33,106 nt of DNA from Chloroflexota bacterium (GTDB taxonomy: Bacteria > Chloroflexota > Anaerolineae > Promineifilales > Promineifilaceae). The stretch spans positions 1 to 33,106 of the forward strand of contig JAACFF010000020.1 of the NCBI GenBank assembly GCA_009937635.1, read 5' to 3'. Under the pieces are notes generated by a model that saw only the letters and a list, made by a program, of their open reading frames with translations, had not been told where the DNA came from and made no database searches. The position numbers and the translations under genes are program-made. This document shows, one piece after another, positions 9,963 to 32,667 of the stretch. The first letter of the stretch is position 1; every line of letters begins with the position of its first letter.

Positions 9963-11021
9963 TTAACCTGATTCAACCATATTCGCAGCTTCCTCCGGGG
10001 TGACATCCACATTATCTAACCATTCGCTGACCACATGTACGCCAAGAACAGGCGCATAAACGCTACGTGTTGTTGAGATATCCGAATGACCCAAAAATTC
10101 TTGCACCACTTCCAAGGGCATTCCCTCGCGCAGCAGTTGTGTGGCTCGATAATGGCGAAAGTCATGGGCGGAGAGGCTGGCATCTAAATGGAGCGCCTTC
10201 ACGGCACGTTTGACAATATTATGTGCGGAGGTGACAGATAACCTTGAATTACGTGCGTTACGACTGTGGGCTACAAATAGTGCAGGGTTCGCATCGCGCC
10301 GTTCTCCAAGATAAGCAGTGATGGATTGGCGCGCATAATCGCGCAAGTGGATGGTACGTGGTTTATTTCCTTTCCCAGTGATGGTTGCAAACCTGGACTG
10401 ACCGCGATCGACATTATTTCTATCCAGTGCGACTACCTCTGAGATACGCGCAGCGGTCGAGTAAAGCACTTTTACCAATGCGCGATCCCTCAGAAGCGAC
10501 AAGCGCCTGTTGTAAAGATCGTTTTCCACAGGCAGTGGCAGCTCATCGTAATATTCAATGATCAGCGGGATGGCTTGACGGGCCAGATCTAGATCGATCA
10601 CGGTTTCTGCCTGGTTTCGGTCTATCTGGCGCCGGGATATCTGTCTCTGTAACTTTCCAAGTTGCACCCCAGCGGGCAAGGCATCAATGCCATCCAGAAA
10701 CTGCAAATAGCCGATTACGGCCGCCGAATAAGTCGTGGTTGTTGAGCGTGATCGATTCGCCAGCAGCCATGAGCGGAAGCTAAGCACAATAGCGGTCGTC
10801 AGTGGGGCAGGCGAAAGCGGCCACTCACCATCTTTCGCATAGACGTCTTGCCGAAAACTTTGTAACCAATCGGCGAACATACGTAACCCGCTGCGGTAGG
10901 TGGCCTCCGTCTTCAAACTGCGTATGCCTGCTTCTAATAAAAACTGGTTTTCATACAACCAGCTTGGCCGGTCGGGCAGGGGGCGCTGGGAAATTGGTAG
11001 GAGATAATCGCGTTGTGACAT
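9963..11021 (-). CDS. Tyrosine recombinase (XerC/D-like integrase)
   Basis: A 352-residue site-specific recombinase. The N-terminal SAM-like core-binding domain (about 20-120) has the helices of phage-integrase DNA binding. The catalytic domain shows the full active-site set: Arg192 in STAARISEVVALD, Lys217 in TGKGNKPR, His286 and Arg289 in LSAHDFRHYRAT, His312 in FLGHSDISTT, and nucleophile Tyr322. All are intact, so the enzyme should be active. It stands alone, without excisionase or phage genes. It may be a chromosomal Xer-like protein, an integron-unrelated orphan integrase or a remnant of an element. No ribosome site is seen before the ATG. Directly upstream is an AT-rich block with tandem repeats (11035-11068) that could be its binding site or operator. 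Confidence 0.92.
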   Translation of the reverse strand: MSQRDYLLPISQRPLPDRPSWLYENQFLLEAGIRSLKTEATYRSGLRMFADWLQSFRQDVYAKDGEWPLSPAPLTTAIVLSFRSWLLANRSRSTTTTYSAAVIGYLQFLDGIDALPAGVQLGKLQRQISRRQIDRNQAETVIDLDLARQAIPLIIEYYDELPLPVENDLYNRRLSLLRDRALVKVLYSTAARISEVVALDRNNVDRGQSRFATITGKGNKPRTIHLRDYARQSITAYLGERRDANPALFVAHSRNARNSRLSVTSAHNIVKRAVKALHLDASLSAHDFRHYRATQLLREGMPLEVVQEFLGHSDISTTRSVYAPVLGVHVVSEWLDNVDVTPEEAANMVESG

Positions 11022-18975: not shown

Positions 18976-19005
18976 TAGACATAATACTTTAACAGATGGT
19001 ATACT
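18976..19005 (+). promoter_or_regulatory. Promoter of the repeat-array leader and surface-protein operon
   Basis: A -35 TAGACA (18976-18981) and -10 TATACT (19000-19005) are 18 bp apart, each one mismatch from consensus. Transcription would start near 19012 and run through the four-unit array into the gene at 19334. The stretch 18875-18975 before it shows nothing else that I can support. Confidence 0.65.
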
Positions 19006-19028
19006 GTCTCAACTCAACAGGAGTTATC

Positions 19029-19052
19029 ATGAGCAATTCTGCTCACCAATAA
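19029..19052 (+). CDS. Putative 7-residue leader peptide in the first array unit
   Basis: AGGAG (19019-19023) stands five bases before the ATG of MSNSAHQ-stop. The spacing is ideal and the site is at the very start of the presumed transcript. The later array units keep an aligned ATG-AGC-AAC/T start (MSNCSPIM, MSNCSPIT, MSNC), but without a comparable ribosome site. It could couple ribosome movement to folding of the hairpins behind it. Confidence 0.4.
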   Translation: MSNSAHQ

Positions 19053-19320
19053 CGTAAAGCAACCTTTCCAGGTTGCGATCAAGCTAGAAGGCTTGACCTT
19101 GGCATGAGCAACTGCTCACCAATAATGTAAAGCAACCTTTCCAGGTTGCGATCAAGCTAGAAGGCTTGACCTTGGCATGAGCAACTGCTCACCAATAACG
19201 TAAAGCAACCTTTCCAGGTTGCGATCAAGCTGGAAGGCTTGACCTTGGCATGAGCAACTGCTAACCAATAACGTAAAGCAACCTTTCCAGGTTGCGATCA
19301 AGCTGCAAAGCTTGACATTG
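19029..19320 (+). repeat. Four tandem 73-75 bp units, each with conserved hairpins, in a 5' leader
   Basis: Units begin at 19029, 19104, 19177 and 19250. Each holds hairpin A, GCAACCT-TTCC-AGGTTGC, at 19059-19076, 19132-19149, 19205-19222 and 19278-19295, identical in all copies. Each also holds hairpin B (TCAAGCT, a four-base loop, then GGCTTGA or AGCTTGA) at 19079-19096, 19152-19169, 19225-19242 and 19298-19315. A third short stem, TGAGC-GCTCA, opens units 1-3. The loop of B is AGAA, AGAA, GGAA and GCAA. Its closing pair is U-G in units 1-3 and U-A in unit 4, so the changes keep the stem, and the last two loops are GNRA tetraloops. The array ends on the ribosome site of the next gene. I infer a structured RNA leader of unknown type. 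Confidence 0.85.
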
Positions 19321-19333
19321 GAAGGAGGAAATT

Positions 19334-20089
19334 ATGAACCCTTGGACAGCATTATTGATTGGTCTTCTTTTAGGCTGGCTAATCGAGTACGCAATTGATT
19401 GGTTTTTCTGGCGGCGTAAAACGGCAAAAGAAAAAGACATCGAGGAGTTGAAGGCTCAGTTGCAAGCTACACAAGATAAAGTGGTGGACTTAGAAGCCCA
19501 GCTTGCAGTATCCCAAGCCGGCTATTCTGATTTGGAAGTTGAGACGACAGCCAAAGTGGCAGAAGTAGAGCAAAAAGCAAAGGAAGATATCGAGGCCAGC
19601 AAGCCGAAATACGATTCTGACGATTTCAGGGGTGGCGTTACAGGTAAATTGGCCGGACTCGGTATTGGAGCCGCTGCTGTTGGGGCTGCCGTTACGGCAG
19701 ACGATGAGTCCGACACGGCCGAAGAGTCCGATGTGGCCGAGGAGGATGAACTATCTGGCGAAGAGGATGCTTCAGCGGAGGAACTCGACGACGCGGCAGC
19801 GGCCGAAGATGGCGAACTGCCAGATAATGCCTCCGGGCCAGAAGAAACCGCAGCGATTGTTGAAGAGCCGGAAGCAGGCGATCCAGAGCCTGACGAAGCG
19901 ATCGAGCTCGATGAATCCGGCCAGGTTGAGGAAGAACCTTCCGTAGCTGGTGTTGACCCAGATAGTGACGTACCAGAAGCCTCAATAGATTCTGCAGAGG
20001 CGGATGCTGGCATCGAATCGCAAGACGTAGACAACACGCCAGCCCCCGGTGAACCAAGCACTTCCGATGAAGGAGGGCAGGCGTCATGA
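19334..20089 (+). CDS. Membrane-anchored coiled-coil protein with acidic tail
   Basis: A 251-residue protein of no named family. One N-terminal helix (about 4-26, LLIGLLLGWLIEYAIDWFFW) is followed by RRK, so the rest may be cytoplasmic by the positive-inside rule. A coiled coil follows (about 32-90, IEELKAQLQATQDKVVDLEAQLA). Next is a Gly/Ala-rich hydrophobic stretch (about 104-122, KLAGLGIGAAAVGAAVTA) that could be a second membrane pass. A strongly acidic, low-complexity tail (123-251) ends the protein. AAGGAGG stands five bases before the ATG. The stop overlaps the next start (ATGA), and both proteins have acidic low-complexity segments, so they probably work together. The 320-nt repeat leader suggests regulated or unusually stable expression. 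Confidence 0.8.
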   Translation: MNPWTALLIGLLLGWLIEYAIDWFFWRRKTAKEKDIEELKAQLQATQDKVVDLEAQLAVSQAGYSDLEVETTAKVAEVEQKAKEDIEASKPKYDSDDFRGGVTGKLAGLGIGAAAVGAAVTADDESDTAEESDVAEEDELSGEEDASAEELDDAAAAEDGELPDNASGPEETAAIVEEPEAGDPEPDEAIELDESGQVEEEPSVAGVDPDSDVPEASIDSAEADAGIESQDVDNTPAPGEPSTSDEGGQAS

Positions 20090-22842
20090 TACACAATCGC
20101 ACACCAGAAGAGGTGCGGCGCTACGATATACTCAAACTTGTTGTCCTCCTGATTCTCCTGGTGCTCATTGTCTTCATGTTATTCCGAGACAGCGACACGG
20201 AGACCTTGACCACGACCGCTGATCCGGCAGCTATATCAGAAGTTGATGAAGCTGCCGCAGAACCTGATGAAACCTCATCGGAAATGCCAGAATCAGTGGA
20301 GGACACCCAGGACGCGGCTACAGAATTAGAGGAAGGGTCTGAAGCGCCAGAAGAAAGTACAGAAGAATCGGACACGGCCGTAGCAGAGGGCGCACAGGAC
20401 GAGACTGGAACCGAAACTGGTGAAGCTGATACCGAGATTGAAGACACTGAAACCGATTCTGAAGCATCGGAAGATGTCGATGCTGAAGCGGATAGTGTCG
20501 CGCCGCAACTTCTATCACCAGCCCCTGGCGCAGAAGTGGAATCGGACGCGGTCCTCTTTTCTGGAACCGGCGCGCCAGACAGCATGATTCGTGTCCTGGC
20601 TGATGGATCAGAGGCGGGGCAAACGCAGGTTGACGCCGACGGAAATTGGCTTTGGGAAGGTGAGCTTGAAGCTGGTGAACCACTCATTGAACTGCAAACG
20701 CTTGATGCTGAGGGCAATGTGACCGCCTCATCTGAACCTGTTGCCATAGTCGTGATCGAGGCTGAAAAGACCGTTGCCACTCCGGATCTCGTGTTGAATG
20801 AAATGAATTTATACGCCGGTAGCGTGGCCTTGGCCGGTTCTGGCGAGCCGGACCAAAGCATCAACATTATAGTTGATGGAGAGGAGATAGCTACGGCGCA
20901 GGTAGATGAAGCCGGTAACTGGTCACTGCCGCTCGATCTAGAAGCCGGTAGTTCTTCAGTCAGCTTACAAACTGTGAACGAGAACGGCGAAGTAATCAAC
21001 GAAGCCGGACCATTTGAGATTACAGTCCAGGACGCGATTTTGCCAACGGTCGATCTTCCCGACGCCGATGTATTTACCGGTGGTATGACGCTGACCGGTA
21101 CTGGACAGCCGGGAGCACAAGTGCAGTTGTATGCTAATGAACTGGTTATTGGTGTGGCCAAGGTAGATGCCGGCGGCAACTACACGATAGAGGTAGATCT
21201 AGAGGCAGGCAGATACGATATTGACGTAGCGCAACTGGATAGCTCCGGCAACCCCGGCGATCTTGTACCGGCGCTCTCTTTGCCGGTTTTGCCCTTGCCC
21301 GGACCTACAACGACCTTCTCAGACCTAGATGTACCGGATTTTGATCCATTGAGTGGCCTTACTTCTTGGCAGGGCACGGCTGATCCCGAGGGTAAAGTGG
21401 TTCTTCTAGACAACGGCGAGGTTGTAGGCGAAGCGACCGCCGATGCCGACGGCAACTGGGCGATGGTAATCGATCTTGAGCCCGGATCATACGAAATTAC
21501 CGTGGCCAGCCTCGATGTTGACGGAAATGTGATCGCCGAATCCAATCCAATTATGTTTGATCTCACCGGTGAACCACCCCATTTCGTTCTACCGGAATAC
21601 AGCGTTGTCGAGAGCGAATCAACTGATGGAGAACGTTTGCAAACAGCCATCCAGTTAACGGCTGGTGACTTTGCTTGGAGTGGAGAAGGCGAACCCAATG
21701 GTTCGATTGCCGTGATCGTCGACGGAGAGGTCGTGGGTACTACTTCTGTCGCTGAGGACGGCACATGGACCATCACCAGTAATCTTGAAGAAGGGGATCA
21801 TGAGGTCCAACTGGCCACTTTAGATTCTGCAGGAAATCTCGTTAGCCGCTCCGTGTCGATATCGGTTAATGTTGCCGCCGTCACTCTGCCCGCTATAGAA
21901 ACCCTAGAACTAGAACAGGACAGTGGTAAAGGCACGATCAGCGGCACGGCTGATCCAGGTACAACGGTGATGGTCAGGGCCAACGGCCGTATCGCAGGTA
22001 TTGCCACCACCGGAGAAGACGGCAAATGGTCAGCAAACGTGGATCTTGGTACAGGCTCATTCGAGCTTCAAGTTCAAGTGCTCGACGAAGACGGCAATGT
22101 GGCGCTCTCCTCTGAAAAGAAGACGGTAGAGGTCACTGGTGAAACCGCGCCTGCCGAGGTCGAAGATGATGTCATCGACGCCACCGCCGCGCGTGGAAAT
22201 TTCTCAACGCTCATCACTGGCTTAGAATCCGCGGGGCTCACGGCGCGTCTATCCGAAGTCGAAGACGCATATACGCTCTTCGCCCCAACCGATGAGGCCT
22301 TTGCCTCGCTTCCCGAGGAAGTCATTGCTGCCTGGAACGACAATCCGGAGGCTTATAAGGAAATCATGTTCTATCTCGTCCTTGAGGGCGCTTACACACA
22401 GGAAGAACTTGCCGCCGCTCAAGTCTTGACGACGTTAGCGGGAACCAACGTTGGCATAACCACCGGCGATACTACGGTCTTAATCAACAAGGTACCCGTT
22501 GTGGAAAGCATTCCAGCCGGTAACAGCATTGTTCATGCTATCGAAGAGGTGATCCTTCCTCCACTGGGTTATCAGGCGCAACCGCCGATCATTGACATAT
22601 CTGGTGTCTCGATTTTCACTGGTGATTATCTGACGGTCGTGGGCAAGGCCGAACCGGGTACTACAATCTTGCTCCAGGTCGCCGGCGAAAACTTTGGAGA
22701 ATTGGCTGCTGTCGATGAATCAGGTTCCTGGCTCGTTTCCGACAATATCAGCAGCGGCGTACAGGAGATAACCGCCTACATGCTTGACGAAAGTGGCATA
22801 CTGATGGCTATTTCGCAGACAGTAAGCTTGCCCGTGCAATGA
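20086..22842 (+). CDS. Surface protein with acidic stalk, seven Ig-like repeats and a FAS1 domain
   Basis: A 918-residue protein. One membrane helix (about 15-33) is followed by a long acidic low-complexity stretch (35-138). Six bacterial Ig-like beta repeats come next (about 140-225, 232-315, 318-400, 408-492, 498-595 and 602-684). Each has the wording SGTG-PG--V-V--DG, D-DGNW and LE-G-YE--V--LD-DGN. A fasciclin (FAS1) domain follows at about 697-826 (LFAPTDEAFASLP, AGNSIVHAIEEVILPP), then a seventh repeat (835-915). FAS1 domains mediate adhesion, and such stacked Ig repeats usually form stalks. I infer a cell-surface adhesion or envelope protein. It is translationally coupled to the coiled-coil gene by an ATGA overlap and followed by a perfect 20-bp hairpin. 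Confidence 0.88.
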   Translation: MIHNRTPEEVRRYDILKLVVLLILLVLIVFMLFRDSDTETLTTTADPAAISEVDEAAAEPDETSSEMPESVEDTQDAATELEEGSEAPEESTEESDTAVAEGAQDETGTETGEADTEIEDTETDSEASEDVDAEADSVAPQLLSPAPGAEVESDAVLFSGTGAPDSMIRVLADGSEAGQTQVDADGNWLWEGELEAGEPLIELQTLDAEGNVTASSEPVAIVVIEAEKTVATPDLVLNEMNLYAGSVALAGSGEPDQSINIIVDGEEIATAQVDEAGNWSLPLDLEAGSSSVSLQTVNENGEVINEAGPFEITVQDAILPTVDLPDADVFTGGMTLTGTGQPGAQVQLYANELVIGVAKVDAGGNYTIEVDLEAGRYDIDVAQLDSSGNPGDLVPALSLPVLPLPGPTTTFSDLDVPDFDPLSGLTSWQGTADPEGKVVLLDNGEVVGEATADADGNWAMVIDLEPGSYEITVASLDVDGNVIAESNPIMFDLTGEPPHFVLPEYSVVESESTDGERLQTAIQLTAGDFAWSGEGEPNGSIAVIVDGEVVGTTSVAEDGTWTITSNLEEGDHEVQLATLDSAGNLVSRSVSISVNVAAVTLPAIETLELEQDSGKGTISGTADPGTTVMVRANGRIAGIATTGEDGKWSANVDLGTGSFELQVQVLDEDGNVALSSEKKTVEVTGETAPAEVEDDVIDATAARGNFSTLITGLESAGLTARLSEVEDAYTLFAPTDEAFASLPEEVIAAWNDNPEAYKEIMFYLVLEGAYTQEELAAAQVLTTLAGTNVGITTGDTTVLINKVPVVESIPAGNSIVHAIEEVILPPLGYQAQPPIIDISGVSIFTGDYLTVVGKAEPGTTILLQVAGENFGELAAVDESGSWLVSDNISSGVQEITAYMLDESGILMAISQTVSLPVQ

Positions 22843-30513: not shown

Positions 30514-32667
30514 TTAATCATGGGCGGTAGAAACATCAAACTCGCTGCCTGCTCCGTGGCAGACTTCGCACGTTTCAATACCGGATGCCGTTGTTTGTAG
30601 CTCGGCGTGTCCCGCAGCGGCCGTCGTGTCATGACAGGCGTTGCAAACGGAGCGGCTGGGCAACACGCTGCTGACGACAGATTCATCCTGCGTCACAGTT
30701 GTGGGTTGAACCCCGTCCGGCAGCGGCAAACCATATGTGCCTTGTAAGTGGCAGTTCTGACAATTCGCCAAATTGCCGGGAAAGACCAGGTTGCTGAAAT
30801 CGTGTTCAGAGCTGTTGAAGCCGTAGACAATGGTGGGCTGCTGGGCGAGTTCTTCACCACGATGGAGACGATGAATTAGAACGGGGAAGTTAATACTTGT
30901 CGGGGGCATTTCCTCCGCCGGACGGACCTCCTCATCAGAAGCAGTCGCATTATGGCACATCACGCAGTATTCCGTGTTCTTGCGGATACCGCCGTGAATG
31001 GCCAGATCGTCATGGCAGGTATTGCACAGCTCGCGATCAACGACCTGGCGACGCGGCGTCGGGTCACTGCCGTCCACAGCAACGAAAGTCACCGGGTTGA
31101 ATGCGGTCACACGTACCGGATCCGCCAAATCGTTGAGTGTCTCATTGACATAGCCCTCCATTCCGAGGGCATAGCTACCTGCGTCTTCTTCTGGGAAGGC
31201 GAACTCCAGGTTATAGCTGAATGCACCATCGCCAATGTCCTCAACCGCAGGTGGGGTTTCGGATGGGGCACGGAATATGGTCTCGGTCACACGTGTTGTA
31301 TAGTCGGTTGTTGGACCGGCGATGGTGACCGCCAGATAATCCATATCAGCCGGATTGATGCTGTTTCCGGCGTTATCAGTGACTTGGAATGTAATCGTTG
31401 GTGATCCACCTGCAAGCACATTGCCTACCGAAAGGATTTCGATGTTTACACCTGCAATCTGTTCTGAGTAGCGCGGGATTACGTGCGAGCCAACCACCGA
31501 AGCATCAAACTCATCCCCTTCCGGTTCATGACAAATATTACACCGGCTATCGTCCTTGCGGCCTCCTCCGTGATTATCGCCGGTTATCAGGTTGACGTCA
31601 TCGTGACAGGCCGTGCAGGCCGCTGTCTGTGGAGCCGTTTTAAAGTTGTCGCCATCCGCTGCACCTGAATGGCAGGTCGTACAGTTACGTACGTCCTGTG
31701 GCCAGGTGCCCGTTGAATAGTCATGACTGGTTTGACGGAATCCAACAATCTGATATGGCTCACCTGCTTCTACACTAGGCAGAAATTCCCCACGGTGTAA
31801 CTTATGGATCATGACTCGGAAATCCAACCCGTTGCCCGTTTCCGGATCAATCGTCTGGTCTGTATGACAGGTAACGCACAGACCCACCTCTTGCCTCGTA
31901 CCCCCGTGGAAAGCCAACGGCTCATGGCAAGCATTACAGTTTTCAGTGAGCACCACCTCACGTGTCAGAATAGGTTCACCGCCGGCTGGAACGAAGGTGA
32001 AAACGTCATTTGCTACGCTGGCGCGATCATCTCTGTAAAGGTATGCACCGATGCTGGTTGTCAGATCTGGGTTGACTTCACTTGATAGATCACTGGCAAA
32101 GGTGTAGGTAAAGGTGCCATCTTCACCCTCAGCCCACTCACCATCTTGGTCAGCATAAGCCTGCGTGGCTGAGGACATGACTGGTTGCATGGTCTCGCCG
32201 CCGACTGTAAACGGCTGACCTTCAACCTCGCGCACCAAAAGGCTTTGATAGCGGGAGATCTCTGTCTCCTCATCCTGGACAACCTGGGCAATAGTGAAAC
32301 CATATCCTTCCAAATCCGCCGGAGTCAATGGAAAATCGGCTCCATCGCTCAACAGAACCGTCACAACTGGTTTGCCAGAGGATAAATCAACCTCGGTTAT
32401 TGCCGCGTTTAGACCAGGACCGGGAGTGAAAAAGGATGCAGCTTGTGGTCCCGCTTGACCAGGAGAGCCAGCCGGTCCCGGGGAGCCCTCCGGTCCGGCC
32501 AGTCCGACCGGCCCAGCTGGACCTGGAGGCCCTTCGGGACCGGGCGGCCCGGCTGGTCCGGGTTCGGCTGGCTCGCTAGCACAGGCAACAAGTGCCACGG
32601 CAGTTAGCAGCAAGCCTGTGATTATCAGGGCAATTGTCCGTCTGTACTTTACGGAAACATCAGTCAT
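30514..32667 (-). CDS. OmcA/MtrC-type decaheme c-type cytochrome lipoprotein with collagen-like stalk
   Basis: A 717-residue protein. The signal peptide ends in the lipobox ALVAC with lipid-bearing Cys29. A Gly-X-Y collagen-like segment (about 34-74, PGPAGPPGPEGPPGP and on) follows. Then come a beta domain (about 80-230), five CxxCH hemes (Cys244, 264, 329, 351, 376), a second beta domain (about 400-535) and five more hemes (Cys548, 568, 636, 675, 700). The beta-pentaheme-beta-pentaheme plan is that of MtrC/OmcA, the extracellular terminal reductases of Shewanella. GGAG lies seven bases before the ATG. As a lipoprotein it should sit on the outer face of the membrane, raised by the stalk. I infer electron exchange with an extracellular partner through the diheme cytochrome. 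No MtrA/MtrB-like conduit is in the window. Confidence 0.95.
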   Translation of the reverse strand: MTDVSVKYRRTIALIITGLLLTAVALVACASEPAEPGPAGPPGPEGPPGPAGPVGLAGPEGSPGPAGSPGQAGPQAASFFTPGPGLNAAITEVDLSSGKPVVTVLLSDGADFPLTPADLEGYGFTIAQVVQDEETEISRYQSLLVREVEGQPFTVGGETMQPVMSSATQAYADQDGEWAEGEDGTFTYTFASDLSSEVNPDLTTSIGAYLYRDDRASVANDVFTFVPAGGEPILTREVVLTENCNACHEPLAFHGGTRQEVGLCVTCHTDQTIDPETGNGLDFRVMIHKLHRGEFLPSVEAGEPYQIVGFRQTSHDYSTGTWPQDVRNCTTCHSGAADGDNFKTAPQTAACTACHDDVNLITGDNHGGGRKDDSRCNICHEPEGDEFDASVVGSHVIPRYSEQIAGVNIEILSVGNVLAGGSPTITFQVTDNAGNSINPADMDYLAVTIAGPTTDYTTRVTETIFRAPSETPPAVEDIGDGAFSYNLEFAFPEEDAGSYALGMEGYVNETLNDLADPVRVTAFNPVTFVAVDGSDPTPRRQVVDRELCNTCHDDLAIHGGIRKNTEYCVMCHNATASDEEVRPAEEMPPTSINFPVLIHRLHRGEELAQQPTIVYGFNSSEHDFSNLVFPGNLANCQNCHLQGTYGLPLPDGVQPTTVTQDESVVSSVLPSRSVCNACHDTTAAAGHAELQTTASGIETCEVCHGAGSEFDVSTAHD

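Follow-up and report, generated by a model that had tools for sequence, protein, structure and literature searches.

REPINs, or BIMEs, are defined as GTA-tagged palindromes that occur in inverse pairs together with a REP-associated tyrosine transposase, or RAYT (PMC8266576, PMC3116915). The RAYTs characterised to date cut single-stranded DNA, for the most part at CT, and the way in which REPs spread has been described as poorly understood (PMC8266576). Published GTAG/CGTC REPs are mostly found towards ORF 3' ends, and their distance from downstream starts varies (PMC3733652). MIRUs are short mobile-looking repeats that sit at translation starts with apparently little harm to the gene (PMC12548453). 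IS200/IS605 elements and their non-autonomous derivatives combine terminal hairpins and a Y1 HUH transposase with strand-specific insertion beside a short target.

Here, we describe a tandem array in a stretch of 33,106 nucleotides (hereafter the window) from a Chloroflexota bacterium. The window genome, G000, is a bin of 658 contigs, and its contamination is estimated at 8%. Our preferred reading, to which we give a probability of roughly 0.78, is that the array is a tandemly amplified REPIN-type miniature element that was spread by a RAYT and inserts next to AGGAG, or CTCCT on the complementary strand, thus becoming an mRNA leader. The family resembles REPINs with their RAYT (REPtrons) in having tagged inverse palindrome pairs that are dispersed and often tandem, in RAYT genes flanked by or adjoining copies, and in the canonical GTAG tag carried by relatives of the window genome. 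Unlike published REPs, it lies a few nt 5' of the Shine-Dalgarno (SD) sequence of a ribosome-binding site in a fixed orientation, and the tag of its main subfamily is GTAA. Placement at translation starts is shared with MIRUs. However, MIRUs insert at start codons and contribute an ORF coupled by a -4 overlap, whereas the present element precedes the SD, consists of a palindrome doublet linked to a RAYT and has no consistently coupled ORF, the frames varying between loci (by inspection only).

Four units lie between a promoter-like site and the ribosome site of the downstream gene, as the first-pass annotation had described and as both TRF and the sequence confirmed (Table 1). TRF on the window returned 4.0 copies of period 73 with 95% matches. 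Hairpin A (GCAACCT TTCC AGGTTGC) is unchanged in 4/4 copies, with repeats at 19132, 19205 and 19278, and hairpin B, present in every window unit, has the loops AGAA, AGAA, GGAA and GCAA in unit order, again in agreement with the earlier description. Counterparts of hairpin C in other copies read GGGC TAGC GCCC or GCGC CGCA GCGC. In the family consensus, GTAAA and TTTAC form an outer pairing; the window units have lost it, and CCAA/TTGG is able to pair there instead. The location of the array in a presumed 5' leader was supported, and this leader (349 nt) folds far more strongly than its shuffles (z = -6.35). No Rfam family reached its gathering score anywhere in the window, consistent with the earlier statement that the array matches no known riboswitch or leader class. 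Elsewhere in the window, TRF found three imperfect 18-bp tandem units (CGGCCCGGCTGGACCGGG) at 32509-32562 within a long-ORF region, and a phage-integrase-family gene (9963-11021, - strand) lies upstream of a glycogen branching enzyme gene.

Table 1. Features of the array and its surroundings, in window positions.
Feature	Position	Strand	Basis or remark
Sigma-70-like promoter candidate, TAGACA-N18-TATACT	18976..19005	+	10/12 consensus matches; consensus match only
Left AGGAG, 5' border motif of full-length element	19019..19023	+	here at -35..-31, versus -36..-32 in the family, before core
Tandem array, four 73-75 bp units	19028..19321	+	TRF
Hairpin C of unit 1 (TGAGC...GCTCA)	19030..19045	+	sequence
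REPIN-like core, copy 1	19054..19101	+	48-nt family match; covariance-model match, 56.6 bits
Hairpin A of copy 1, 7-bp stem, TTCC loop	19059..19076	+	sequence; pairing kept across 59 copies
Hairpin B of copy 1, 7-bp stem, AGAA loop	19079..19096	+	sequence; pairing kept across 59 copies
REPIN-like core, copy 2	19127..19174	+	48-nt family match; covariance-model match, 56.6 bits
REPIN-like core, copy 3	19200..19247	+	48-nt family match; covariance-model match, 58.2 bits
REPIN-like core, copy 4, adjoining SD	19273..19320	+	48-nt family match; covariance-model match, 57.4 bits
Presumed SD, AAGGAGG, immediately 3' of copy 4	19322..19328	+	sequence
Downstream gene: N-terminal hydrophobic stretch, then charged/acidic coiled-coil-like sequence	19334..20089	+	ATG start codon at 19334 (sequence); no Pfam family
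Second gene of presumed operon (ATGA overlap), adhesin-like: Ig-like repeats (Big_6, Big_13) and fasciclin domain	20086..22842	+	

When one window unit was used as query against the whole genome, only four of the 61 matches fell inside the window, and exact hairpin patterns gave 73 matches each, versus 0 for a reversed control pattern. The copies collected with their flanks comprise about 80 instances of a 48-nt core, dispersed over 65 extragenic loci and forming three subfamilies; because the searches that collected them started from the window unit, more diverged relatives may be under-sampled. Against the hundreds of copies in E. coli (PMC8266576), this number is modest for REPs, and it counts against our reading. 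The core is an inverted doublet in which GTAA and a palindrome (loop TTCC) are followed by a short spacer and by an inverted partner (loop GGAA) ending in TTAC. In other words, the pattern GTAAAGCAACC...TTTAC represents two REPs in inverse orientation, single or in tandem, and its two 18-nt hairpins with their GTAA tags correspond to the imperfect palindromes of 20-50 nt that characterise REPs. The GTAA of the main subfamily also counts against our reading, since the usual tag is GTAG, although GTAG is present in most copies of subfamily S2 and in the relatives G050, G009 and G187. Main-subfamily copies resemble one another over a block bounded by two AGGAG motifs, one about 36 nt upstream of the core and the other 2 nt downstream, with similarity at background level beyond. 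Over 59 copies, hairpin pairing was kept in 95.8% of cells while the base pairs differ between subfamilies. Cells with a double change numbered 30, versus 7.4 in shuffles, and slid versions of the hairpins were 19-44% paired. The earlier claim that pairing is maintained despite variation is therefore borne out by conserved hairpins with compensatory changes.

Tandem arrays are also present on contigs C32, C82, C313, C177 and C435, which means that amplification is common in this family, and we read the window array as the fourfold tandem amplification of one REPIN-type insertion. The array on C32 (L062 3000-3393, - strand) lies before an oppC-like gene and consists of about eleven tandem 34-bp units with the second hairpin only (GGTTGCGATCAAGCTGGAAAGCTTGAGTTACG), an amplification unit unlike that of the window array. 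Neither the plasmid and phage collections nor viral contigs contained a match to the element. Among the GTDB r220 contigs, only two tandem copies were detected, on one contig (L098 500-1100) of a MAG named Haliea sp., where they directly precede an ATG; the contig may have been misbinned and belong to a relative of the window organism.

The unusual feature of the family is its location 5' of the SD. In a strict placement test, which required an SD, a start codon and an ORF of >= 60 codons all within 30 nt of the element, 30/50 loci of the main subfamily (S1) were positive (p about 3e-27), compared with 3/50 at the opposite end of the same elements and with 4.7-5.8% in a null of random positions, which was sampled from the sequence fetched around the repeats. 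An SD-like motif was present <=10 nt after the core in 44/56 copies, versus 5% in the control. Several of the 20 failing S1 loci are leaders too, in which tandem partial units or short genes intervene, examples being a thymidine-kinase-like gene on C58 and a Flp-pilin-like gene on C631 (recognised by eye from translations). For subfamilies S2 and S3, the SD was found on one side at 10/15 loci and on the other at 0/15; relative to the palindrome in its original notation this is the opposite side, and in gene sense the architecture equals that of S1. The orientation relative to the SD is fixed, with one orientation per subfamily. The least diverged copies were SD-linked at 14/16 loci, compared with 16/34 for the rest (Fisher p = 0.012), while copies are also found outside leaders, where their average divergence is higher. 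Even where no start codon follows, copies adjoin AGGAG or GGAG at several loci (C424, C440, C546, C592 and C79:9861). The first-pass annotation had said that its proposal would be refuted by REP/MITE-type units spread across the genome and unconnected with 5' leaders: the scattering, as a REP-type repeat, was indeed observed, but the link to leaders is strong.

The covariance-model search that the annotation had suggested identified related doublets in 14/52 genomes of the family and 22/298 of the class. Placement before an SD was seen in relatives at 13/18 loci in G050 (other side 0/18), 4/4 in G187, 2/3 in G169 and 4/7 in G009, where one start is ambiguous in that a tandem copy may follow, as well as at single loci in G018 and G011. 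Other REPIN families of the class lacked this placement (0/11 in G128 and 0/4 in G204), which indicates that the method alone does not generate the pattern.

No common function is evident among the genes behind the element, whose products include ketol-acid reductoisomerase (ilvC), EF-P, LysX, a LacD-type aldolase, transaldolase/PGI, acetyl-CoA synthetase, enoyl-CoA hydratase, an M32 peptidase, a PEP hydrolase-like protein, OppC and pyruvate:ferredoxin oxidoreductase. In the same-genus genome G001 the element was absent from 12/12 leaders examined, which comprised clean orthologues aligned at the start codon (ilvC, EF-P, lysX and the genes on C10, C184, C314, C335 and C657) and some pairs of other kinds. 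Since the covariance model also gave no match at all on G001, the insertions appear to be recent on that scale; transposition, excision or an exact empty site was not seen, G001 being too diverged to show one. A dedicated regulatory element of the window operon or of a regulon is not supported, in view of the unrelated downstream genes and the congener's leaders. In its broader form, this proposal would make the copies a cis-regulatory RNA kept for regulation of about 40 genes through a trans-acting protein or sRNA. Conserved structure with compensatory changes, a GNRA-type loop, a strongly folded leader and a fixed position and orientation relative to the SD would all suit such an RNA. So, at least compatibly, would the finding that in two species of one genus, G056 (L209) and G057 (L210), an element lies directly before the same SDR-like gene, near ~2000. 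This common copy shows that some insertions persist, and it was apparently inherited. Yet we consider this alternative improbable: besides the unrelated genes and the element-free leaders of the congener, the youngest copies are the most SD-linked, as expected of an insertion preference and not of slow selection, no consistent change in SD accessibility is predicted, and the balance of G-U to A-C variants over both hairpins, 18:10 when cells are counted but 8:8 by pair, gives no clear sign of strand-specific RNA selection.

Predicted SD accessibility bears on another earlier suggestion, namely a block of translation through pairing of CCTTTCC (hairpin A) with GGAAGG at the SD, its strength depending on the number of copies. 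The two motifs are complementary apart from one bulge, and a single unit slightly raises the predicted cost of opening the SD, from 5.6 kcal/mol with 0 units to 6.8 with 1. With 2-4 units, however, the predicted cost falls to 3.5-3.7 kcal/mol, and across 10 loci the element causes no rise (median 4.3 with it versus 5.5 without). Moreover, CCTTTCC belongs to the palindrome and hardly varies between copies. A role as ribosome-site blocker is therefore not supported, and we regard it as very improbable. Accessibility that is not predicted to fall fits a tolerated insertion, and suggests a near-neutral effect on translation.

A candidate for the enzyme that spreads the family was found on contig C79, where an ORF (L090:77-592) was identified as a RAYT by NF047646 (108.5 bits, cut-off 80) and by similarity to TnpArep (PDB 4er8, 3e-11), and its stop is followed, 20 nt further on, by the start of a divergent copy of the element. 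On C14, a RAYT-like ORF with a weaker score, below the cut-off, is flanked on both sides by its own palindromes, as is the RAYT of G009 (C171; 76 bits, just below the cut-off) by its own REPs. A RAYT gene linked to the same REPs, as in known REP/REPIN systems, is present on C79, with lower-scoring candidates on C14 and on C171 of G009. We infer that these RAYTs mobilise the family, with which the element-free leaders of G001 agree indirectly. The link was not reproduced in G050, where the flanks of the RAYT loci held no exact match to the palindromes of that genome. A second RAYT gene (Y1 transposase) of the window genome, on C82 (L063 1-1070), is probably not the driver because a different repeat family (GAGTAGTAGGCATCC...) surrounds it. 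Classical IS200 transposases (C245 and C191) had no adjacent copies in the stretches read. Strand-specific insertion of the IS200/IS605 type would give a fixed orientation, as in the family here, but no complete IS with the ends of the element was found, and the C79 enzyme scores 108.5 bits as REP_Tyr_transpos, above the cut-off, versus 18.7 bits as IS200 transposase, below the cut-off.

On the preferred reading, the mobile unit would be a pair of inversely oriented palindromes, each with a GTAA tag, in most cases together with a small hairpin upstream and a bordering AGGAG on either side, and would probably be spread by a RAYT. In single-stranded DNA, this transposase would insert the unit next to CTCCT, which is complementary to AGGAG. 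A unit that enters on the 3' side of CTCCT would come to lie immediately 5' of the SD, always in the same orientation, and would add a structured mRNA leader without removing the SD, which would still work. A target present on one strand only would account for the fixed orientation, for AGGAG occurring at both borders and for its presence beside gene-less copies. We tentatively propose, at somewhat less than even odds, that RAYTs of this class recognise CTCCT in single-stranded DNA and that REPINs home in this way to ribosome-binding sites genome-wide. The gap between palindrome and SD varies in the sister families (about 3-8 nt), so that the SD may not be the literal target.

Selection against insertions elsewhere could produce the same placement pattern, and this is the main rival to targeting. 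It accepts the REPIN identity and contests the targeting step only: insertion would be random, and the SD-adjacent copies would be those that survived because they are harmless or provide an SD. Insertions between promoter and SD should indeed be tolerated, and the higher average divergence of copies away from leaders agrees with this explanation. Nevertheless, we think it unlikely, given that the youngest copies are already SD-linked at 14/16 loci, that tolerance alone leaves a fixed orientation unexplained for a nearly palindromic core, that AGGAG adjoins copies with no start codon behind, and that REPINs elsewhere in the class survive well away from SDs (as in G128).

A family placed at SDs in fixed orientation offers a concrete and testable target rule for the spread of REPs; in the literature, which we searched as open-access text only, no earlier report of an SD-placed REP family was found. 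The family also provides a natural series of leader insertions before unrelated genes, in arrays of one to many units. If homing to CTCCT holds true, REPINs would be removable mRNA leaders of variable copy number.

A conserved leader peptide (MNVKQPFQVAIKLES...) was considered and rejected: many copies are open in that frame, but the ATG is not conserved and the frame relative to the gene varies. The element may be translated at some loci. At one locus of G050 (C219; L191 ~1270-1350), a short upstream ORF crosses the palindrome in frame into the downstream protein.
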